NCBI GenBank assembly: GCA_903923795.1
Contig: CAIXYX010000140.1
Span: 1-41,305, forward strand
Source of the DNA: an uncultured Microcaldota archaeon
Lineage (GTDB): Archaea; Micrarchaeota; Micrarchaeia; Anstonellales; Anstonellaceae
Direction: 5' to 3'
DNA: 41,305 bases
The notes under the pieces: model-generated
The model's input: only the letters and a program-made list of their open reading frames with translations
The model's database searches: none
What the model was told of the DNA's origin: nothing
Program-made: the position numbers and the translations under genes
Part shown: one piece after another, positions 1 through 39,960 of the stretch
How positions within the stretch are numbered: the first letter of the stretch is position 1
How the letters are laid out: each line of letters opens with the position of its first letter

Positions 1-339
1 GTTATTCTCCCGCAGGCGGCCTTGACCGGAGTGAATCTGTCAGATATGAGTGCGAGCCATCTGTCGAATGCCTCGGCCGTGGTCGAATACGAGAGGTTGT
101 CGCCGGAGGGGCGGGCAGTCAAGTATCATACAGACCGCACGTCATCGGAGCATTTCCAGCAGCTGGCGCTGGATTTCAATATACTTTTCATACCTGTTGA
201 TTCGCCTTTTATGGGAGATGAGGCGGCCGGGCTCGCGCGCGACGGAATTATGGCGGCGAGAGCGGATGTGCTGATGGTGTGCGACCGGGAGAGCGGAGTG
301 GCATGGGGAAAAATAGAAGAGATGAAACCGGCGGTGTGA
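1..339 (+). CDS. Hypothetical protein, 5'-truncated by window edge
   Basis: Frame 1 is open from base 1 (VILPQAALTGVNLSDMSAS...) to TGA at 337-339; no family recognised. Confidence 0.6.
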   Translation, partial: VILPQAALTGVNLSDMSASHLSNASAVVEYERLSPEGRAVKYHTDRTSSEHFQQLALDFNILFIPVDSPFMGDEAAGLARDGIMAARADVLMVCDRESGVAWGKIEEMKPAV

Positions 340-7545: not shown

Positions 7546-10500
7546 ATGGCGGATTTGAAGGCACCGAAGAGGATTCTTCAGAGCGACTCACAGAACTCCC
7601 TGCCCGTGACGACGATGGAGGAGAACCCGCAGTTGATTGATCTGCTGCACAACCCCTCCAAAGCATATGACCACTTCACCGAGCTGAAGGAAGCGGTTGC
7701 CAGCAGTACCGCCGTGCATCCGAATTACCTGAAAGTTGTGCCGAGCATGAACAACGATAAAAATGTCAAGTCCGGCGAAGTGAAAAACACGCAAGCAAAG
7801 AAAGAAACCTCATTAAACTGCAATCAGGCCATGCAGAAGATTGACCAGTTCTATTCTCTCTATGCTTCCGAGTTGGACAGTATAGAATATGGCAAGAGCC
7901 TGCAGAATGTTCAGGATACATGGACTTCGGGCACTAATTCGCAGAAAGAGGGTCTTTCGTCCTCCGGCGCGCAGATGGACAATCTGGACCCGTTCAAGAC
8001 ACAAAGCACGCCAACGCAATTGGCGGAATCATTTGACGGATATTCAAAATACTCGAAGGCGAATATCGAGAAGAAGGTGGCGGAATTTACAACAGAGGAT
8101 GAGAAAAAGAATTATGTGCTAAACCTCCTGAGCGAGATGGCGGGAGTCGAGGGCGTGGTCCGCTCGATGCGGGCCGAGAAATATATGGCCGGCGCCTATG
8201 ATTTTGGCAAAGATTCCAAAGAGGAGGTGAGGCGCAACCTCGCAGCATGGCTGATTGGCACCCACGCGACGGCAGAATCGATGGCAGGGGAATTGGAGAA
8301 GAGCAAGAACGCGAAAAACCCGAACAGCGTTTATCATGATGCGTGGCTTCTGCTCTACGCCAAAAGCGACAGGGCGTCAGTTGCTTGGGGTGCCAAGAGC
8401 TTGTATGATGCATTAGGCGACAATTGGGAAAATCTTGGCAGAGATGAGCGGAGCATTGACAAAGTCATAGATATGTGCAAAGACATACAGAAAACGCAGG
8501 GCCGAGTCATGGAAGATTTGGCGCATCAGGAAAATGTGGAGATAAACGGATGGACTTTGGCATTTGTAAGTGAGCATGGGCAGGCCATTGTGGATGTGGG
8601 TGTGGCGGCGACCTCGGCGCTCCTCCTCCAGCCCGAGTTGAGCATGTATTATTTCGGATTCCGCGGCGCAGGCATGGCGGTGGAGGGGGCGGTTGAGGGC
8701 GACTGGGGAAAAGCCTTCACAGGCACGATGATGGCGATTCCGCTGGTGGGCAGGGCAGGCAGGGTGCTGGCACCGTCGAGCAAGATGATGAAATGGGGCA
8801 CGAGCGTGGCCGGTGCAACTTCGGCTACCGCATTCACCGGCATGATGGCTTATGACAGCACCAAACTGCTTTACGAAGCCAGTCACACATATTTCACGCT
8901 GTCGGATTATGTTGGAATAGCGCAGAATGCCGCATTTGTGGCAGGAATACAAATGACTGAGAAGATGCTGACGGGCACGAAGAAAGTTATGGCGCAAAGA
9001 AAGAGGGCGGCGGCAAAGCAGGCAGATAAAAATGACAAGACGGTGAAAACAAAGAAGCCTGTGCAGGCATATGCGGAAGCCAAAGACGCACCAGAGACCA
9101 AGTCGATTTATTCTGCAAAAGATTACATGGCTGACCCGTATTCGGGAGCGCGTTTTCGAAAGCTCTATTCGGCTGTCGAGAATGTGGTACCCGGCATTAT
9201 TGAGAAAGACCCCGGCACCGCTCTTTATCTGAACATCATCGCCAAGAGTTTCAGTGACAGAGGAGTGAATGCGCTGCTTAGCGAGATGAACAAAATCAAA
9301 TGGCTGGATGGGAAGAGGGGCAAACTGAAAATGGCATCGCCTGAGGAGCAGAAAGACGGGCTTTGGAAGCTGCTGCTCGATTCCGAACATCTGGAAGATA
9401 TACAGAAAAGAGGCGGCGAAAATCCGTATCCGGTGGATAAACTGTATTCATTCCCGGCCAACATGCTGGACCCGATTATTTGGTTTGGGAAGAAAATCGG
9501 GGCTGCGGCGAAGAAAACCGCGAAGAAGATGAAAAAGAAAGCGAAGCAGACTGCGCCGGTCGCGGAACAACCAACGCAGGAGAAGAGAGTGGAGATCTCC
9601 AAGTTACCTTACGCGAATGAGGAAACCGCCGGCATACCCAAAGCCCTACAGCCCGACGAGGTCAAAAAACCCTTCATCGGCCTAAAGGAGACGAAACCGC
9701 TCCTGCGCCAGGCCATGCTGGACAACCCGAACAAAGACGTCAAGGACATGGTCAACGAGCACTGGGCAGACACCGAAGGACTCCTCAATATGATGTGGAA
9801 TGTGTGGGACAGGAAGATGGTGGATGACTATGCCGATTATATCCGCAAGTGCACCACCGCGGGAGAGGTGGCTGAACACGGCTGGGCGCTCATCGAGCAG
9901 TTCGAGAACCGCTCACGGCGGACCATGATCAGGACGAAGACAAAGACCGGGGTGGCGGATGGCGGCGAGAATGCCCTCGCCCAATTAAGCGACAAGCGCA
10001 AGGTGCTCTTCCATCACTTAAAGAACGATATAGACCATCCATTGGTCATCTGCGAACTTGCCCGCGGAAGGCTTGAAAAGAATGGATTTTCAAAAGAGGC
10101 GCAGGCTATCAAGGAATACGAGGACAAATTGCGGCTCATCTCGCGTGGAGAAGGCAAGGCCGGCGGCCAGATGGGCGCGACAGATTATTACAAACAGATG
10201 ATCTCGAGCGATGCGACGAATGGCACGCTTGCCGCAAACGGCCAGATGGTAATCGATTTATCGGTTGAAGCCGAGAAAGTTTTTGGCGAAGCTTACCAGG
10301 TGCTCAAGAAGATGAATGAGAATGGGCCGACCAAAGGCCTGCTGAGCGGCAGCCTCGAGGATGTGGAGCCCCGCAAGATAATGGACGAACACGGAGCCGA
10401 GACGAAAATCCCCGGATGGTTCGAGAGGATTTCCAAAAACCGCCAGGAAGTCATCAACCCCAGCGAGATGGACATAAAGACCGAGGATATCGGTTCGCTC

Positions 10501-11943
10501 ATCAAAAGCAGATTCGCCGATGTGACTGCGCCTGCCACGAAGATATATGCAGAGGTCGATGGAGATTTGCTCATGCAGGCATTTGATAATGTGCTCGGCA
10601 ACGCGGATAAATACAAGGCGGCGGGCACGAAAGTCAAGGTGGATGTGCTCGAGCGGGATGGCCTGATTCACATACAGGTATCGAACAGGGTGGAGGCGGG
10701 CGGGGGCATAACAAATGAGATGTGGAACCGAGCGTTGCGGGGGGAGTCCAACGACAATGCGACCCCGAACTCGACAGGGGTGGGCATACTGGGGAGCATC
10801 GCAGTCATAGATGGATTCGACGGGCGCATAAATCTCGTTGACGGCGGCAGGGAGAGCGGAACCACCACAATTGAAATCACGGTGCCAAGCAACGAGGAGG
10901 CGGGAGGGAATCTGATGAATTCTGGCCCGACTTCCGGGACCTCGCAGAGCCTGTCCATGCAAAACGCCCTCTCTGATGTCGGGTACACATCCGCAGAAAG
11001 CCAAAGACTGGCGCAGGCTAATATGCAGAGATATCTGGATGACTTCTATCCAGGTGTGAAGATAGAGGACGTGCAGTTCCTGGACTTCGGCGGAGTCAAC
11101 GACGTATATGCCCTGAGATACAAAGACGAGACTCTCGGGCTCATCAAGGGGAGCAGCCTGGTGGCAGATAAATTCATGCTGGATTTGTATCGCAGGATGG
11201 GGTTCGACCAGGGATACTCGATAATGCGCTATGGGAATATCGATATCATGCAGTTTGCGGAAGGCACAAGCCTCTCCGCATGCATACGCGGCGGGCATAT
11301 CCGCTCGGTGCGCACCGGCGATGATGGCAAGCTGATTAGGGAGGATGTCCCGCTTGACGAGAGGATCATGTCCGAGCTGGCATATGAGTACGGGAGGCAG
11401 ATGGCGGTGCACGAAGCATTCTCGCTTCATGACCCCCATGGAGACAATTTTCGGGCAGTCATGATAGACGGCAAAGCCAAAATCATCCGTATAGATATGG
11501 AAGGTGCTACGATCGGAGGGATGGTGTCTGAGGATTATGTCGACGCATTCTCGGACACGCATGCGTGGACCAGCCCTGACGGCCAGTATTACGCCCAGCT
11601 AAAAGCCGGCTTTGAGGCGCAGGCCCAGCTCATCTACGATAATAGGGCCGAGCTGATTCAAAGGCTCGGAGAGGTTGAGTCGGAACTTGGTTCTGATAAG
11701 ACGCTTCCGCATCAGATAGAAGGAATCTCCCAGGCCACAATCGGCACCAGCTTCCCGACCACGATTGCGCGCCTCGCGCGGACACCGCAGATGGCATGGG
11801 AAAGTTTCTTAAAAGAGGGGAAGACGGGGGAGAGCAATGAATACGTTCAACCCGACTTCGACGAGGAGGCGTATCGCTATTATCAGACAATGCATCCGGA
11901 TTGGACCCACGAGCAGATAATGAGGGAGATGGAAGAGGAATGA
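7546..11943 (+). CDS. 1465-aa multidomain protein: long N-terminal helical/hydrophobic region, histidine-kinase-like DHp + HATPase_c core, C-terminal APH/ABC1-like kinase fold
   Basis: H-box-like LFHHLKNDIDHPLVICELARGRLEK; N-box DLLMQAFDNVLGNADKYKAAG; G2-like STGVGILGSIAVIDGFDGRINLVDGG; kinase-like LDFGGVNDVYAL ... LIKGSS ... LHDPHGDNFRAVMIDGKAKIIRIDMEGA. Confidence 0.8.
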   Translation: MADLKAPKRILQSDSQNSLPVTTMEENPQLIDLLHNPSKAYDHFTELKEAVASSTAVHPNYLKVVPSMNNDKNVKSGEVKNTQAKKETSLNCNQAMQKIDQFYSLYASELDSIEYGKSLQNVQDTWTSGTNSQKEGLSSSGAQMDNLDPFKTQSTPTQLAESFDGYSKYSKANIEKKVAEFTTEDEKKNYVLNLLSEMAGVEGVVRSMRAEKYMAGAYDFGKDSKEEVRRNLAAWLIGTHATAESMAGELEKSKNAKNPNSVYHDAWLLLYAKSDRASVAWGAKSLYDALGDNWENLGRDERSIDKVIDMCKDIQKTQGRVMEDLAHQENVEINGWTLAFVSEHGQAIVDVGVAATSALLLQPELSMYYFGFRGAGMAVEGAVEGDWGKAFTGTMMAIPLVGRAGRVLAPSSKMMKWGTSVAGATSATAFTGMMAYDSTKLLYEASHTYFTLSDYVGIAQNAAFVAGIQMTEKMLTGTKKVMAQRKRAAAKQADKNDKTVKTKKPVQAYAEAKDAPETKSIYSAKDYMADPYSGARFRKLYSAVENVVPGIIEKDPGTALYLNIIAKSFSDRGVNALLSEMNKIKWLDGKRGKLKMASPEEQKDGLWKLLLDSEHLEDIQKRGGENPYPVDKLYSFPANMLDPIIWFGKKIGAAAKKTAKKMKKKAKQTAPVAEQPTQEKRVEISKLPYANEETAGIPKALQPDEVKKPFIGLKETKPLLRQAMLDNPNKDVKDMVNEHWADTEGLLNMMWNVWDRKMVDDYADYIRKCTTAGEVAEHGWALIEQFENRSRRTMIRTKTKTGVADGGENALAQLSDKRKVLFHHLKNDIDHPLVICELARGRLEKNGFSKEAQAIKEYEDKLRLISRGEGKAGGQMGATDYYKQMISSDATNGTLAANGQMVIDLSVEAEKVFGEAYQVLKKMNENGPTKGLLSGSLEDVEPRKIMDEHGAETKIPGWFERISKNRQEVINPSEMDIKTEDIGSLIKSRFADVTAPATKIYAEVDGDLLMQAFDNVLGNADKYKAAGTKVKVDVLERDGLIHIQVSNRVEAGGGITNEMWNRALRGESNDNATPNSTGVGILGSIAVIDGFDGRINLVDGGRESGTTTIEITVPSNEEAGGNLMNSGPTSGTSQSLSMQNALSDVGYTSAESQRLAQANMQRYLDDFYPGVKIEDVQFLDFGGVNDVYALRYKDETLGLIKGSSLVADKFMLDLYRRMGFDQGYSIMRYGNIDIMQFAEGTSLSACIRGGHIRSVRTGDDGKLIREDVPLDERIMSELAYEYGRQMAVHEAFSLHDPHGDNFRAVMIDGKAKIIRIDMEGATIGGMVSEDYVDAFSDTHAWTSPDGQYYAQLKAGFEAQAQLIYDNRAELIQRLGEVESELGSDKTLPHQIEGISQATIGTSFPTTIARLARTPQMAWESFLKEGKTGESNEYVQPDFDEEAYRYYQTMHPDWTHEQIMREMEEE

Positions 11944-16848: not shown

Positions 16849-16943
16849 ATTTCGCCAAAAAACTCCGCCCGAAACCGATGACGGATGCCCCCTCGACTGG
16901 CCGGCGGCCCAATCTTTTTAAACACCCCAACCGTTAGGGGGCC

Positions 16944-19900
16944 ATGTTCACCCCGCGTCGTGGTTTGGCAGGCCGGCAGGAGAAGCCGTTCGAAGGAAAA
17001 GAAATGGGTCGGTCGTCGTCCGGGACCCGCGGGGCGCTTGCCATGCGCGCGCAGACAACTGTTGAATATATCGTGCTTTTCGCCGCCATCGCCGTTTTGG
17101 TGCTCGTTCTTGCAAACCTTTTGGGAGTGCTGCCCAAGAACTCCGGAATGCAGATAGAACAGTCGAAGGCATATTGGAGCAGTCAGGCTGGACCCATCAA
17201 AGTGAAGGACTGGTCGATGGCTACAATAAAACAGGACTCGCCGTTGGCTGCGGATGCCAACTTATCACTTGTGCTCTCTAATCCCACACGAGACACCATC
17301 ATTATCAAGGCCATCACGCTTGCGCCGGGCAATTTCAGCTCGGTTATGGATGCGTCAGGGAATTGGATGGGCACAAGCACATCTCTTTCCATTGTCCTGC
17401 TGCCGGGTGAGGAGAGGACTATTGTTGCGCTGCACCATGGAGTGGGGGCTGGCGCGTATATCCCGGCCGAATACTATTCGCAGATATTGACGCTCACATA
17501 CTCTACCGGACTTGGCACTTCGCGCGAGACGGGCGCATTGCCGCTTGTTGGCAGCAACAGGTATATTGTCGGGAGCGTTGGCGCCTGCCCGCCGCCGCTG
17601 ACCAGCTGTGGTGGCGGAGCGTGCGCAGAGGCTGGCCACTGTTGTGGAAGCGGTGCTTGCAATTCCCAGCAGACATGCTGCGGAGGGAGCACATGCTGCA
17701 ACAGCGGATCTGAGAGCTGCCAGAGCGGTTCGTGCGTGGCTGTTTCCGGCTGCAATGCGCCGAATTTCACATGCAATGGCATATGCTGCGATGCGGCTTC
17801 GTATAATCTGTGCCAGGGAGACACGCAGTGCGCATATTGTGACAGAGCAAAGACATGCGGCGAATATTGCTGCGGGGATTCGGAAACATGCGTGAATTCT
17901 GGTGCCGGAAGCTATGCTGGAGCATGCCAGATTGTTACACCTGCATGCACGGCCCCGAACACCACGTGCGGCACATGGTGCTGCGCACAGGGACAGACAT
18001 GCGTGAACAGCAGTGCGGCCACGTATGACGGAGCATGCCAGGCTGCGGCGACCTGCGTATCCCCGAACATCACATGCGGGGCTTGGTGCTGCGCGGACGG
18101 GCTAGGATGCATGAATGACACTGCCAGCACATATGAGGGGGCTTGCCAGGAAGCGATGTTCGAATGCCCTGAGCAGTACGACATTTGCGGGATATGGTGC
18201 TGCGAGCATGGAGACACATGCGATCCGGACGGATTGACATATGATCAGGCATGCCGAGTGGATAGAAACTGCACTTCCCCAAACTCGGTGAAATGCGGAA
18301 CCAACTGCTGCCTGGACAATCAGACATGCAATGAGACGACTCGGGTGTGCGTGGACACTAAATCTTGCTCAGACCCATCAGGGTGGAATTCGTATAATCA
18401 GACATGTGTAAATGACTGCGATGCCACGACGCAGTACTGTGATGGCACTAGTTGCCTGTGCGCCAATCGGAGTCTGATAGCCTGCAGCTCGAATTCGTCG
18501 GATTATGATGCGTCTACGATGACATGCATCGATGACTGTGATCATTCGACCCAATACTGCAATGGAGCTTGCCAGTGCGCCCCGAGCACGAATGTTCCAT
18601 GCAATTCCGGCATCGGAGTGTATGACTCGAGCAGGACGTGCTTGGACAACTGCGACGGCAATACTTATTGTGATGGCAATTGCTTGTGCCAGCCGCGCCC
18701 GGTAGTATACTGCAGCAACAGCCCGGATTTCAACGCGGGCACGAGGATATGCGCAGACGACTGCAACCGCAGCCTGTATTCTGGCTGCGCCGGAGATTGC
18801 ACGTGCATACCCCTTGACTTGACCAGATATTGCAACGCGCACGGAGTTTTCGATGGCGGCAGTCTGCAATGCCTGAGCAATTGCAGTGATTATGCAAATG
18901 CTTTCGGTTTTGATCCAAACACTCTGACGTGTATCGACAACTGCAATTCGGCGACCCAGTACTGCGACCCCAACACCTGCCTGTGCGACATCAAACAACC
19001 GGTGCAATGCGCGAATTTCGCCCGGCCATTTGACTTCAACAATCCCGGCACATACTGGAATAATATGACGATGAGCTGCCAGGATAATTGCGCAGTACTT
19101 GGTTCTGATGTGCAATGCGACGGCTCGAACTGCACCTGCTGCTATGCAGAAGGTCATCAGTGCGATATCACACCGAACTCGCCGCCGCCCGGCTGCTGTG
19201 GTGGACTGGTCTGCAATTCCTCAGGGATGTGCGCACCTGCGCCGCCAGTGATACTATGCTCGAACAGCTCGACTCCCTTGCTACCGGTTCCGGGAGATCC
19301 GGAATATTATGATAGATACTGCCAGGACGATGTCGCGCAGAAAGTTGGAACAGGATATGCATGCAACTTGAACGGCTGCAATTACTATCCGGTTTGCGGA
19401 TACAACACTACATACTGCGCAGAGGGAGCGTGCTGCTATGCAAACCAGAGCTGTGTGAATGGGGCGTGCGTGAACTCGTGCGCGGCTGGCACCACGTATT
19501 GCAATGATACGAACGGAAATTACGTTGGTTGCTGCGCCGCAGGCTCGGTGTGCAATTCGCTCAAGGGAATGTGCGTGGTGAATTCGACATGCTCGGGCGC
19601 GAATCTGTCATTGTGCGGCAATGCGTGCTGCAACCTCTCGAGTCAGGCATGCAGCGGCGGCGCCTGCATAAACTGCGCCGCCGGGATGGGCTCGTGCGGA
19701 AGCACATGCTGCGCTGCATCTGATTGCCGCACAGGCGGAGTTTGCTGCCCGAGCAGCAGATGGGTCAGTGCCACGAACACTTGCTGCGAGATAGGGAATG
19801 TGAGCTCGAATGGCCACTGCTGCCCGGCGAACCAGACATATGCCAACGGCGGATGCTGCCCGGCAGGGCAGATTTATTCAAATGGAGCATGCTGCGCGAT

Positions 19901-21137
19901 CAACACGTGGAATGGCACGATGTGCTGCCCGAGCGGGCAGTATGCGGTGAATGGCACCTGCCAATGCAGCGGCGGAAACCTCACATGTGGCTCGACTTGC
20001 TGCAATCCGACCACGCAGTCGTGCAATGAAGATTCGGGCACTTGCACAACATGTGGAGGCGGCCAGACAATGTGCGGGGGCTCATGCTGCGCTGCAGGGA
20101 ATTGCCGCAATGGAAATGTATGCTGCCCAGCCAATAGATGGAATGCCAGCACGAACACATGCTGCCCGGCCGAGAGATGGAACAGCAACACGAACACATG
20201 CTGCCCGGTCGGGCAGGTGAATGGGAATGGAGTGTGCTGCCAGGCGGGAAGATGGAACGCGGGTACGGGAGTATGCTGCCCAGACAGCAAATGGAGTGGA
20301 AGTCAGTGCTGCCCGGAGGGCAAGACCCCGTATTTGGGCACTTGTTTGTGCAATGGAAGAATAACCTGCAACTACGAATGCTGCAATTCGACAAGCCAGG
20401 GAGATGCGACAGATCAGGTATGCAATATGACGGGGCATATGAATTACAGCACTGGCACCGATTACTACACTTATGCCTGCGTGACCTGCCCGGCAGGAAC
20501 AGATAAATGCGGAACTAGCTGCTGCGCGAGCGGAAGATGCTTTGGCGGAGGAGCGGCCTGCTGCCCAGTTAACACGACGTATTTCAGCTATGGCGCGACA
20601 TGCTGCCCGAATGATCGAGTGGTTAATGGCGCATGCTGCCCGAAAAATAAAGTGATTGCGGGCGGAGTCTGCTGCGATGCGGCGTATGCACACGGAGACG
20701 TGTGCTGCCTCCCCAACCCTTACAACGAAAGCCAATATGCGATGTATTATGGGTATACGAACGGAAACCGCTGGACTGGCTCGACTTGCTGTCCATATGG
20801 ACAGGCATATGTGAATGGAAGCTGCTGTGCGCTGGACCATATTGCCCTCACAAACTCGAATTTGGGAGGATACGCATACTGCTGTGATTCAGGCAGCTGG
20901 GGCACCCCGGGCAGATACTTCGGTGATTCGATATGCTGCCCAGTGGGGACAACGTTTTCATGGACGGGCGGAAACCTGGATAGAGCAGACTTGAACATCT
21001 CAAACGTATGCTGCCCGAACGCACGCTGGGTGCATGATCCACACGGATATGATATCTGCTGCCCGGTCGGAAAAACGATCACGAACGGAGTTTGCGAGTG
21101 CTGGCTGAATAGATATGGAGAATGCGTGACGTCATGA
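16944..21137 (+). CDS. Giant cysteine-repeat surface protein with class III (pilin/archaellin-type) signal sequence
   Basis: ARAQ-like MRAQTTVEYIVLFAAIAVLVLVLANLLGV matches the QxS/TxExxxL class III signal pattern; about 1200 following residues are dense in Cys with CCPxxxx, TCGxWCC and TQYCxGxCxC repeats; TATA TTTTTAAA about 25 nt upstream of ATG. Confidence 0.85.
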   Translation: MFTPRRGLAGRQEKPFEGKEMGRSSSGTRGALAMRAQTTVEYIVLFAAIAVLVLVLANLLGVLPKNSGMQIEQSKAYWSSQAGPIKVKDWSMATIKQDSPLAADANLSLVLSNPTRDTIIIKAITLAPGNFSSVMDASGNWMGTSTSLSIVLLPGEERTIVALHHGVGAGAYIPAEYYSQILTLTYSTGLGTSRETGALPLVGSNRYIVGSVGACPPPLTSCGGGACAEAGHCCGSGACNSQQTCCGGSTCCNSGSESCQSGSCVAVSGCNAPNFTCNGICCDAASYNLCQGDTQCAYCDRAKTCGEYCCGDSETCVNSGAGSYAGACQIVTPACTAPNTTCGTWCCAQGQTCVNSSAATYDGACQAAATCVSPNITCGAWCCADGLGCMNDTASTYEGACQEAMFECPEQYDICGIWCCEHGDTCDPDGLTYDQACRVDRNCTSPNSVKCGTNCCLDNQTCNETTRVCVDTKSCSDPSGWNSYNQTCVNDCDATTQYCDGTSCLCANRSLIACSSNSSDYDASTMTCIDDCDHSTQYCNGACQCAPSTNVPCNSGIGVYDSSRTCLDNCDGNTYCDGNCLCQPRPVVYCSNSPDFNAGTRICADDCNRSLYSGCAGDCTCIPLDLTRYCNAHGVFDGGSLQCLSNCSDYANAFGFDPNTLTCIDNCNSATQYCDPNTCLCDIKQPVQCANFARPFDFNNPGTYWNNMTMSCQDNCAVLGSDVQCDGSNCTCCYAEGHQCDITPNSPPPGCCGGLVCNSSGMCAPAPPVILCSNSSTPLLPVPGDPEYYDRYCQDDVAQKVGTGYACNLNGCNYYPVCGYNTTYCAEGACCYANQSCVNGACVNSCAAGTTYCNDTNGNYVGCCAAGSVCNSLKGMCVVNSTCSGANLSLCGNACCNLSSQACSGGACINCAAGMGSCGSTCCAASDCRTGGVCCPSSRWVSATNTCCEIGNVSSNGHCCPANQTYANGGCCPAGQIYSNGACCAINTWNGTMCCPSGQYAVNGTCQCSGGNLTCGSTCCNPTTQSCNEDSGTCTTCGGGQTMCGGSCCAAGNCRNGNVCCPANRWNASTNTCCPAERWNSNTNTCCPVGQVNGNGVCCQAGRWNAGTGVCCPDSKWSGSQCCPEGKTPYLGTCLCNGRITCNYECCNSTSQGDATDQVCNMTGHMNYSTGTDYYTYACVTCPAGTDKCGTSCCASGRCFGGGAACCPVNTTYFSYGATCCPNDRVVNGACCPKNKVIAGGVCCDAAYAHGDVCCLPNPYNESQYAMYYGYTNGNRWTGSTCCPYGQAYVNGSCCALDHIALTNSNLGGYAYCCDSGSWGTPGRYFGDSICCPVGTTFSWTGGNLDRADLNISNVCCPNARWVHDPHGYDICCPVGKTITNGVCECWLNRYGECVTS

Positions 21138-30254: not shown

Positions 30255-30379
30255 CTAATCCCTTTGATGCTTGAATTAGGCAGATTGCCCGTTTTAATAC
30301 CGCCATAGGCGGGTTCTGAGCGTTTGGATTGCGAGAAATGACCAATCGGCTTTTATTTGCGCAATACATCTCTCATCTT

Positions 30380-31606
30380 ATGGCGGGAATACGGATTCTG
30401 GCGTTGTTTTTGCTTCTCTTCGCGTCGATGGCATGCATAGAGCAGAAAACAAACGAAACGAATCAGAATGCGACCTCGGATTTATCGAATTCGACCCAGA
30501 GCTATTCGAATCTGTCGGATAATGCAACTGCCGCGCCTTATTTCCACCTCAACACCGTGCCCCCGCAGAGGATAAAAAATCTGGCGCGGGGAGTGAATGT
30601 GGCCAACTGGTTCTGGTATCCGGCATATAGCGATTCGGCGCATTTCGAAGAATATATGACAGACACAGAATTGGAATGGCTGAATGCACGGGGTTTCACT
30701 TTCATCAGATTGCCCGTGGACCCGAAACTGCTTTATTTGGAGGGCATGCCCGGAACGCCGAATGAGACGACTCTTGCACACATCAATAATGCCACAGCAA
30801 GAGTGCTTGCCCATAATCTCTCTATTGTCATAGAGCTGCACGAGAATGACTGGAGCCGTTTGGAGAATGACGCGGCATATGATGACGGATTGGTGAAATT
30901 GTGGGGCGCTATGGCGAAGAACTTGAGCCGTTTCGATTCGGACAAAGTTTTCTTCGAGCCGGTGAATGAGCCGCGTTATTACACAAATCCTCTCGCATGG
31001 TTTTCGCTGCAAGACAGATTTTTGAGCGCTATTCGCGCATCGGCGCCGAATAACACTATTTTCGCCACCGGGCCTATCATGTCATCAGTGCAGGGCACAA
31101 TGCTCAATGAGCCGGTCGATGATGGAAACATCATCTACACATTCCATTTCTATGACCCTGCCGCGTTCACCCATCAGGGCGCGGGATGGCTGCCGGGCGG
31201 ATTCGACCAGATAAAGAATTTGGCTTATCCATATGAGGAGGCGAATTGCGGGGAAGTGGCGGCCAACACCACCCCCGCGCTGGCAAAGGCTGCGGTGAAA
31301 CAGTATTGCGCGGATGAGTGGAATGCGACAGTTGTGCGCAAGAAGATTGGGGTGATTGCCGATTGGGCAAAAGAGAAGAATGTCACCTTGCTGGCCGGAG
31401 AATTCGGCACGTATGAAGTGGTGACTCCTCCGGCTTCGCGCGCTGCTTGGCTGAAAGATGCGAGGATGACATTTGATGAGAATAAAATCGGCTGGTGCGT
31501 GTGGAGCTATGACACGGGCTTTGGCATAGGGGCGAAATTAGGCGAGGATGGAGAAGTGCATGCAGATGAGGCGGCCATGGATGCGCTTGGCTTGGGGCAG
31601 AAGTAG
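30380..31606 (+). CDS. Secreted/lipoprotein glycoside hydrolase family 5 (cellulase-like)
   Basis: ILALFLLLFASMACIEQ lipobox; ARGVNVANWFWY, GFTFIRLPVDP, VFFEPVNEPRY (NEP acid/base), LLAGEFGTYE nucleophile; upstream alternative start at 30338. Confidence 0.85.
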   Translation: MAGIRILALFLLLFASMACIEQKTNETNQNATSDLSNSTQSYSNLSDNATAAPYFHLNTVPPQRIKNLARGVNVANWFWYPAYSDSAHFEEYMTDTELEWLNARGFTFIRLPVDPKLLYLEGMPGTPNETTLAHINNATARVLAHNLSIVIELHENDWSRLENDAAYDDGLVKLWGAMAKNLSRFDSDKVFFEPVNEPRYYTNPLAWFSLQDRFLSAIRASAPNNTIFATGPIMSSVQGTMLNEPVDDGNIIYTFHFYDPAAFTHQGAGWLPGGFDQIKNLAYPYEEANCGEVAANTTPALAKAAVKQYCADEWNATVVRKKIGVIADWAKEKNVTLLAGEFGTYEVVTPPASRAAWLKDARMTFDENKIGWCVWSYDTGFGIGAKLGEDGEVHADEAAMDALGLGQK

Positions 31607-37000: not shown

Positions 37001-37103
37001 GAAGGGATTTTATGCGGAGAGGAATTTAAACGGGTGTTCGGACAGTTTGGCTTGACCGAACAAAATGGCGAGTAGTATTAAAAGAGGAAATAAAGTCAGA
37101 GAT

Positions 37104-38339
37104 ATGAAAACGCGTGAATCGGATCTGTTGAATGAAACGAAATGGCAGCGTCGTGTTTCTCGAAGTAAAATGATTGGCTGGATAATCCTGGTTCTGCTTG
37201 CCCAGATGATGATTGTTTGCGCAGGCTCTAATTATGCGCAAGTGGGGGTCTGCATAAACGATAAATCAGCCCCGGATTCGTCAGCTGGAATTTGGCAAAA
37301 TGGATATCACTGCAGTTATGACGAGACTGGAATTTCGGGTGATGAACCGCAAATCAGATGCGTGGTGTGCACAGCGGCAGGAGATGCGGCAAATTCAGGG
37401 GCAGCTCAAACAGACAAGACAACTCTGAATTTTGAATCTGGCGACAAGGACGCCAAAAAAGCTTCGGCAGGATGGTTTGATGGAATTGGCGGATGGTTCG
37501 GGGAACAGGCGGACAGCTTCGCACAGGCGCTTGCTGGAGCCGGCAAAAGTGTGCGCAAGGCGCTTGACCCCGGCTTCTGCGAGACAAATGCGGATTGCAG
37601 CGCAAATGAGATATGCAAGCCGGGCTTAGGCTGCAGCGCGGCTCCGGCCTGCAACACCTGGAGAAAAGATGAGGGGAGCTCCGGACAAGTCAGGTTGGTA
37701 TTCATTGGAGACGGTTTTAGGACAGATGAAGACTTGAGAAAGGCAGTTGATGGAGTTGTTGATTGGGATGGCACGAATTATGGCCTGATGTCGCTCGAAC
37801 CATTCAAAAGCCACAAATTCCAGTTCGACATCTATTATGTGAGGTTGAATGAGAGCATCTGGGTCACAAATCAGAATAATCGAAGTCATGTGGATGAAGA
37901 AACCGTCGAAGAACAAAGTAAAATCTGTGGAGATACCGACCAATACATACTGCTCTCAAGACAGAGTTTTCGGTCATATGCTTATTTTGAATATGGAGAG
38001 GCATATGTTTCCTTGGGTAATGAATGGCTTTCCCAGTTCCAAAACAGGCTCGTGGACCATGAGTTCGGCCACTCGTTCGGGAAACTTAAGGATGAATATG
38101 TTGAGGACGGAAAAGAAGACTTGCCCGGACCACCCAATTGCGCCAGCAGCCAAGAAGAAGCCGAAAGCTGGTGGGGAGACATGCCGGGGACAGGCTATTT
38201 CGATGGATGCAGTTATGTGAGCGGCAATATCCGGCCCACGGAGAATTCAGTCATGCGGGACCAGTATTTGCTGTGGGATAGTTACGGACCGGTGAATGAG
38301 ATGCAGATACGGGATGTGCTCAACAGCGTCAGTAGGTGA
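37104..38339 (+). CDS. Membrane-anchored M64 (IgA peptidase-like) metallopeptidase with Cys-rich linker
   Basis: RLVFIGDGFRTDEDL, NRLVDHEFGHSFGKLKDEYVE (HExxH), CETNADCSANEICKPGLGC linker; TATA TATTAAAAG about 28 nt before ATG 37104. Confidence 0.82.
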   Translation: MKTRESDLLNETKWQRRVSRSKMIGWIILVLLAQMMIVCAGSNYAQVGVCINDKSAPDSSAGIWQNGYHCSYDETGISGDEPQIRCVVCTAAGDAANSGAAQTDKTTLNFESGDKDAKKASAGWFDGIGGWFGEQADSFAQALAGAGKSVRKALDPGFCETNADCSANEICKPGLGCSAAPACNTWRKDEGSSGQVRLVFIGDGFRTDEDLRKAVDGVVDWDGTNYGLMSLEPFKSHKFQFDIYYVRLNESIWVTNQNNRSHVDEETVEEQSKICGDTDQYILLSRQSFRSYAYFEYGEAYVSLGNEWLSQFQNRLVDHEFGHSFGKLKDEYVEDGKEDLPGPPNCASSQEEAESWWGDMPGTGYFDGCSYVSGNIRPTENSVMRDQYLLWDSYGPVNEMQIRDVLNSVSR

Positions 38340-39042: not shown

Positions 39043-39960
39043 TTATTTCGCCTTGGCCATCTCGGCGGCGATTATCGTCTTGAAGCCCGGCTGGAGCTTC
39101 CCGGCGTTGTCGGTGTAGTTCTCGTATGGCAGGGCGCCGACAACCAATCTGCCGGTCACGATGTCGCCTTTTCTCACGCCGATGATGAAGCTGGGGGTTC
39201 CGCCCACTCCGGCCGCGCTGCCGGCTGCCTGCTGGGCTGCCAATGTGGCATCTTTGCCAGTGGCGGTGCAGTTGTTGAATTTGGCCATGTCGAGGCCGAG
39301 GGATTGCGCGAGGGTCTTCAATCCCGTGTCATCAGTCGTGCTGGTGTTGAATATCAGGTCGTGCATGGCCCAGTATTTGTTCTGGTCGCCTGCGCATTCA
39401 ACTGCCACGTGGGCGGGCTTGGCGGTCGGGTGCACGATGTAGTTGATGTGTATCATGTCGATTTGGCCGCCTGAGGCGTTCATGACCTGATGCATGGTGG
39501 GCTGCACCCTGACGCAGAATGGGCACTGGAAGTCGGAGAATTCCACTATGGTGAGTTTGGCGCTTGCGTTGCCCAAGATGGCACGGCCGCTCACATTCAC
39601 CACGCCGGTCTGCACGGGCGCTGGGGCTGACGGGGCGGATGGAGCCTGCTGGCCTGTTCCGCACCCGTTTTGCGCGCCATTGTTCGCCGCATTGGCTGCT
39701 GCATTATTCGCTGCATTGGCTGCCGCGTTGGCGGCTGTGCCGGTCGGAGCGGTGAGGTTGATGGTGTTGTTCACCGGCGCATTGACCACGACGGTGAAAC
39801 TCTTGGCTGAGAGGGTTTCATTGAGCGAGCTCATGGAGAAGTATATGGAGGCGGAGATGAGGGCGCCGACAAGAATCAATGAGAAGGCCAGAAGATATGT
39901 CGGATTGGCCTCGGACGAATGTGAATGCGTATGGCCCGCATATGACTTATCCTCGCTCAT
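39043..39960 (-). CDS. Membrane-anchored DsbA/thioredoxin-fold protein
   Basis: N-terminal TM, Ala/Asn repeat linker, TIVEFSDFQCPFCVRVQPT (CPFC), GVGGTPSFIIG cis-Pro region; SD GGAGGTAATTCT before ATG. Confidence 0.88.
   Translation of the reverse strand: MSEDKSYAGHTHSHSSEANPTYLLAFSLILVGALISASIYFSMSSLNETLSAKSFTVVVNAPVNNTINLTAPTGTAANAAANAANNAAANAANNGAQNGCGTGQQAPSAPSAPAPVQTGVVNVSGRAILGNASAKLTIVEFSDFQCPFCVRVQPTMHQVMNASGGQIDMIHINYIVHPTAKPAHVAVECAGDQNKYWAMHDLIFNTSTTDDTGLKTLAQSLGLDMAKFNNCTATGKDATLAAQQAAGSAAGVGGTPSFIIGVRKGDIVTGRLVVGALPYENYTDNAGKLQPGFKTIIAAEMAKAK

Follow-up and report, generated by a model that had tools for sequence, protein, structure and literature searches.

The stretch of DNA analysed here (the window) comprises 41,305 nucleotides of contig CAIXYX010000140.1 from an uncultured Micrarchaeota archaeon, and the gene of interest occupies positions 16944-21137 of its forward strand as an uninterrupted open reading frame of 1,397 codons. 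Judged by its sequence, and with a probability of roughly 0.6, this gene encodes a giant modular type IV pilin, the C-terminal part of which would form a disulfide-rich, probably glycosylated attachment arm. An earlier note on the same DNA had proposed a class III signal followed by a very long cysteine-rich ectodomain, and both elements are confirmed by the results below. The Micrarchaeota genome likewise agrees with its suggestion of a DPANN host.

The class III signal is recognized in the whole-genome search, where PF04021 reaches 24.8 bits against a cut-off of 23.7; with the giant protein itself as query, the score is 18.5-20.7 bits, under that cut-off. The N-terminus fits the QxSxExxxL-type motif and the hydrophobic helix of about 20 residues by which archaeal type IV pilins are recognized, and AlphaFold2 places a helix at residues 5-25. 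Residue numbering starts at the R encoded at 17046 (residue 1), the cysteine and sequon counts being numbered from the Met before it. Profile searches with the head that follows the helix return, from within the order and outside it, many proteins of about 150 residues that have this class III signal and the S..YW motif; its kin in the phylum are dozens of plain class III pilins of about 150 amino acids, some of them tandemly arrayed. These plain homologues stop where the head ends, and the cysteine-rich tail of the giant begins at that point, as is characteristic of modular pilins. By sequence comparison, the N-terminus is more than a plain anchor and the head belongs to an ordinary pilin family. 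The earlier note had envisaged homologues in which this region is only a transmembrane anchor; those recovered are ordinary pilins sharing the entire head. A model of the head with the first cysteine block, built from a two-row alignment, consists of a helix followed by beta strands (predicted local distance difference test score, pLDDT, 57). In a fold search over 350,542 PDB chains, this low-confidence model matched the archaeal type IV pili 8fk7 and 8q30 at ranks 7 and 19 (E 3-5e-3), a result only suggestive of an archaeal pilin fold.

The arm contains all 192 cysteines of the protein, spread over residues 181-1363 (about 1,180 residues), and the head contains none. Cysteine makes up 14% of the giant pilin, as against 1.2% in the 19 other genes of the window. 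The three repeat classes in series described earlier are all present, but the layout proved richer, with three super-repeats and a separate block at residues 181-264. Repeat classes were defined by cysteine spacing, and the chance level was taken from 2,000 composition shuffles. The strict class 1 pattern occurs 3 times (shuffle mean 0.08, maximum 3), its loose form 10 times (mean 0.93, maximum 7), and the class 3 spacing, CC-(9..12)-CC, 19 times (mean 2.8, maximum 12). By this test, classes 1 and 3 exceed the chance level. Class 2, with 5 occurrences (mean 0.57, maximum 6), is weaker by simple pattern, though its units align. Each super-repeat runs from class 1-like units through a ladder of CC pairs to a C-x-C end; the first two measure about 125-130 residues each, and the copies are 46-48% identical in protein and 53-60% in DNA. 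The ectodomain also carries 36 NxS/T sequons, compared with 17.7 +/- 3.8 in shuffles, and an AglB/STT3 oligosaccharyltransferase is encoded in the genome. His and Lys are scarce, and no C-terminal transmembrane stretch is seen in the sequence.

Searches of Pfam, NCBIfam and PDB sequences assigned no named cysteine-rich domain to the tail. The CC-pair runs, about 10-12 residues apart and with predicted short hairpins, resemble granulins, as the earlier note had remarked of class 3, but the CC ladder has no granulin match by Pfam, sequence profile or fold, and family membership could not be upheld. Granulin (PF00396) gave no Pfam match at E<=1, and the class 3 profile gave no PDB sequence match; the sole granulin match, 2jye, was weak (E 0.093) and came from a profile of the head plus the first cysteine repeats. 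A model of the second super-repeat (residues 974-1103), built from a three-row alignment of the copies, reached a mean pLDDT of 82 and a predicted template modelling score of 0.53. Compared with PDB folds, its best match had an E of 0.31 and no granulin was among the 50 matches listed, so a granulin fold for the CC ladder was rejected. The C-C-CC-C-C spacing of class 1 likewise recalls inhibitor cystine knots and Dickkopf_N, although inhibitor cystine knot and Dickkopf_N profiles found no match in the window repeats, which belong to no Pfam family; the likeness is one of cysteine spacing.

The orthologue in a sister species of the same genus group (G005) occupies the corresponding locus and encodes 1,342 amino acids with 179 cysteines. 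Gene order there is as in the window: ABC permease, ATPase, trxB (thioredoxin reductase), giant pilin, one extra gene, proteasome beta and FttA. The two proteins share the head and the start of the cysteine region at 41-48% identity; their first 360 or so residues align at 41%, and the remainder aligns weakly. By this comparison, the head is kept while the arm changes. Three further relatives fall in the same clade: G001 (1,220 amino acids, 170 cysteines), G006 (1,064 amino acids, 118 cysteines) and G009 (at least 601 amino acids, 74 cysteines, ending at a contig edge). Of 303 Micrarchaeota genomes, only five (the window's own, G000, and these four), all in one family, showed a long pilin of the window type; genome-wide counts rest on family searches. 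In a tree of 89 heads, for which bootstrap values are rough, the window protein pairs with its sister-species orthologue (support 100/92), inside a clade of six cysteine-tailed and two plain pilins (100/97). The cysteine-tail label must have changed five times or more on the well-supported branches of this tree, and such tails have apparently been gained or lost repeatedly, the tree giving no direction. One scan of viral contigs found no relative of the giant pilin.

Long cysteine-tailed pilins of any kind occur in at least 8 of the 20 genomes of the family. One such tail belongs to G014 (L093:2496-5003, minus strand), an 836-residue class III pilin with about 24 tandem units of the cystine-knot type C-6-C-5-CC-4-C-4-C, which scores 74.5 bits for Dickkopf_N (PF04706; cut-off 25) and 33.7 bits for Toxin_12 (PF07740; cut-off 21). 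G008 has several other cysteine-tailed pilins, and G007 has two or three. Across the phylum, PF04706 occurs on pilin-headed proteins (G007, G008) and also on secreted proteins that lack a class III signal, which means that Dickkopf-type repeats are not specific to pilins. The window's genome has a shorter paralogue (L042:11389-12624), in which a pilin head is followed by a small cysteine module and a glycine-rich domain before the contig ends; AglB lies on the same contig. In addition, long class III pilins with low-cysteine tails of GGxxPYxW-type repeats (L094:4371-6848, L095:4729-6783, L096:2158-4062) represent a second type of long archaeal modular pilin.

The machinery that a pilin needs is encoded in the host genome, a 1.24 Mb assembly of 146 contigs that is 88% complete. 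An A24 prepilin peptidase (PF01478) on contig C78 scores 29.3 bits in the genome search and 25.8 bits as a single protein, just below the cut-off of 26.5; it carries AAYFD and GGAD motifs and is the one such peptidase found in this genome. Three T2SSE pilus-type ATPases and six T2SSF platform domains lie above cut-off, and the pilus locus on contig C29 also encodes a small class III protein. The absence of a prepilin peptidase or type IV filament system, which the earlier note named as a reason to abandon a pilin, is therefore not the case.

The gene appears to have its own start signals. In the alignment of the window with G005, TTTTTAAACACCC..ACCG is conserved and the ATG is equally spaced. 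The TTTTTAAAC box is probably the giant pilin gene's own promoter, and the mRNA may be leaderless. Since the box and the ATG spacing are common to both species, the ATG at 16944 with a leaderless mRNA is favoured, and the ATG at 17043 is a possible alternative. With either start, leader cleavage is expected after the A of MRA/QTTVEY.

From these features, we infer filament assembly, disulfides, glycosylation and adhesion for the giant pilin. The protein would be exported by Sec, the A24 prepilin peptidase would cut before QTTVEY, and the helix would retain the product in the membrane. Outside the cell, the repeats would oxidize into an elongated, disulfide-rich and N-glycosylated arm, perhaps aided by a DsbA-like membrane-anchored protein with a CPFC motif that is encoded 18 kb away (39043-39960, minus strand). 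One of the three pilus-type machines would then incorporate the head, probably as a minor pilin and most likely at the tip, since a C-terminal module of this size would probably not fit along the shaft without clashes; this steric argument is borrowed from PilB of Streptococcus sanguinis (PMC8179133). The arm would contact another cell, a host archaeon or the matrix, and a surface binding part fits the fast turnover of repeats under a conserved head.

Several observations weigh against this reading. The giant pilin gene is not linked to the pilus ATPase locus, and VKOR, sought as an oxidizing partner, was not found in the 88% complete genome. Known ligand-binding domains were absent from the tail in family searches, and the cysteine count of the G005 orthologue is odd. 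Confidence in the head model is low, and the weak fold matches that it gives are for the most part generic beta sandwiches.

Bacterial systems offer the nearest precedent. A survey of bacterial modular pilins collected more than 1,200 proteins in 264 architectures, the most extreme being 860 residues long (PMC8179133). In these proteins, a single kind of head bears a wide variety of grafted modules. PilB and PilC of S. sanguinis resemble the window protein in that a class III pilin module at the N-terminus is followed by a bulky one at the C-terminus; for PilB an adhesive role has been demonstrated (PMC8179133). The survey was built on the IPR012902 pilin signature and deals with bacteria, the word archaea being absent from its text (PMC8179133), whereas the window protein belongs to an archaeal family and carries about 1,180 residues of cysteine-rich repeats rather than a vWA or lectin module. 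With archaeal class III and minor pilins it shares the class III signal, stand-alone genes off the main locus and many paralogues, according to the portion of the archaeal type IV pilus census used here (Makarova et al. 2016, PMC4858521). That portion notes large proteins and cysteine-bearing components in some systems and does not describe a giant cysteine-repeat pilin. Large surface proteins proposed for host contact, some tied to type IV pilus loci, are also known from the Micrarchaeota-related Mia14; its surface-layer and LamG proteins have PKD, beta-propeller and LamG folds, in contrast to cysteine repeats (PMC5498576). The earlier note did not recognize such an architecture as described. 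No paper on archaeal or cysteine-rich modular pilins was found among the open-access papers covered (subscription papers and preprints were not covered), but modular pilins as such are established in bacteria.

The alternative that retains most weight, at about one chance in four, is that the class III helix, cleaved or uncleaved, serves as a mere membrane anchor and the protein never enters a filament, acting as a membrane stalk or coat. Such a role would suit a gene without adjacent pilus machinery genes, whose context varies among genomes, and a 1,180-residue module that is larger than the biggest cited bacterial modular pilin in total (PMC8179133). A plain anchor, however, would have no need of the roughly 155 residues beyond the helix, and this entire head is common to plain pilins.

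It is improbable that the pilin, instead of binding passively, bears small cystine-knot modules with an inhibitor-like or toxin-like action on adjacent cells. This idea draws on the G014 relative, whose units score as Dickkopf_N and Toxin_12, but the window protein matches neither family, and a structural role is suggested by the retention of its repeats in a single chain. Neither an immunity gene nor a release site was recognized, although no systematic search was made for them.

An equally slim prospect is a thiol-rich coat protein that binds metal in the manner of metallothionein or buffers redox conditions. TrxB enzymes are cytosolic, which weakens the argument from the trxB gene directly upstream of the giant pilin in G000 and G005; the gene is not among the scanned neighbours in G001 and G006, and the conserved TATA-like box stands between the two genes. 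A redox operon with trxB was rejected, as G005 is the one other genome in which the two genes were seen side by side and the box separates them. The 192 cysteines themselves would suit such a coat, yet they are spaced as regularly as those of disulfide folds, and His and Lys are few. Finally, despite the fragmented assembly, an assembly, frame or chance artefact is effectively refuted by the G005 orthologue, which has nearly the same length and occupies the corresponding locus, as well as by patterned cysteines, the shared upstream box and a third-position GC content of 0.62, inside the range of other genes.

Table 1. Features of the giant pilin gene and its upstream box, in window positions
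Feature	Position	Strand	Remarks
TATA-like box TTTTTAAAC	16915..16923	+	about 21 nt 5' of ATG 16944; kept in G005
Prepilin leader	16944..17051	+	36 aa from ATG 16944, 3 aa from ATG 17043; start choice inferred
Class III signal hydrophobic helix QTTVEYIVLFAAIAVLVLVLANL	17052..17120	+	residues 3-25, QTTVEYIVL...; Glu at mature position 5
Pilin head	17121..17585	+	residues 26-180, about 155 residues; Cys-free, predicted all-beta, conserved S..YW motif
First Cys block	17586..17837	+	residues 181-264; Cys pattern conserved in G005
Class 1 repeats	17838..18350	+	residues 265-435; five tandem copies, C-6-C-3-CC-5-C-(4..11)-C
Class 2 repeats	18366..19142	+	residues 441-699; six aligned units, C-12-C-3-C-6-C-3-C-1-C-7
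Less regular Cys-rich region	19143..19589	+	Cys spacing
Super-repeat 1	19590..19964	+	residues 849-973; 48% identical to super-repeat 2
Super-repeat 2	19965..20354	+	residues 974-1103; modelled with short hairpins
Super-repeat 3	20355..21110	+	residues 1104-1355; 46% identity to super-repeat 2; longer, CC-ladder insertions
Short C-terminal tail and stop codon	21111..21137	+	

Other genes of the window and family deserve a brief record. A sorting domain of the type IX secretion type (PF18962) at the protein C-terminus is odd in Micrarchaeota, the system being known from Bacteroidota; the domain occurs in 13 of the 20 genomes of the family (L039:13625-15394, L090:11701-13713, G000:C2:1276-1476). 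Two of these proteins adjoin the giant cysteine pilin in G005 and G001, where the genomic settings differ. Large proteins are encoded upstream of the ABC genes at window 7546-11943 (plus strand) and L039:484-4056, the window protein having a histidine-kinase-type ATPase domain. The window also encodes a GH5 cellulase-type glycosidase (30329-31606, plus strand), here in a DPANN genome, and a predicted protein of 424 amino acids (37065-38339, plus strand) whose M64 peptidase match is slightly above cut-off.

More broadly, it is possible, though doubtful at present, that one Micrarchaeota family possesses interchangeable, fast-changing disulfide-rich arms at the pilus tip, repeatedly grafted on pilin heads, as a contact organ towards its partners. 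For the CC-ladder super-repeat, a disulfide-rich fold that has no solved counterpart is possible. The giant pilin offers a concrete candidate for the part with which a DPANN archaeon contacts its host, one for which the gene, relatives and a predicted N-terminal cleavage site can be named. If this reading is true, the modular-pilin principle known from bacteria would extend to archaea.

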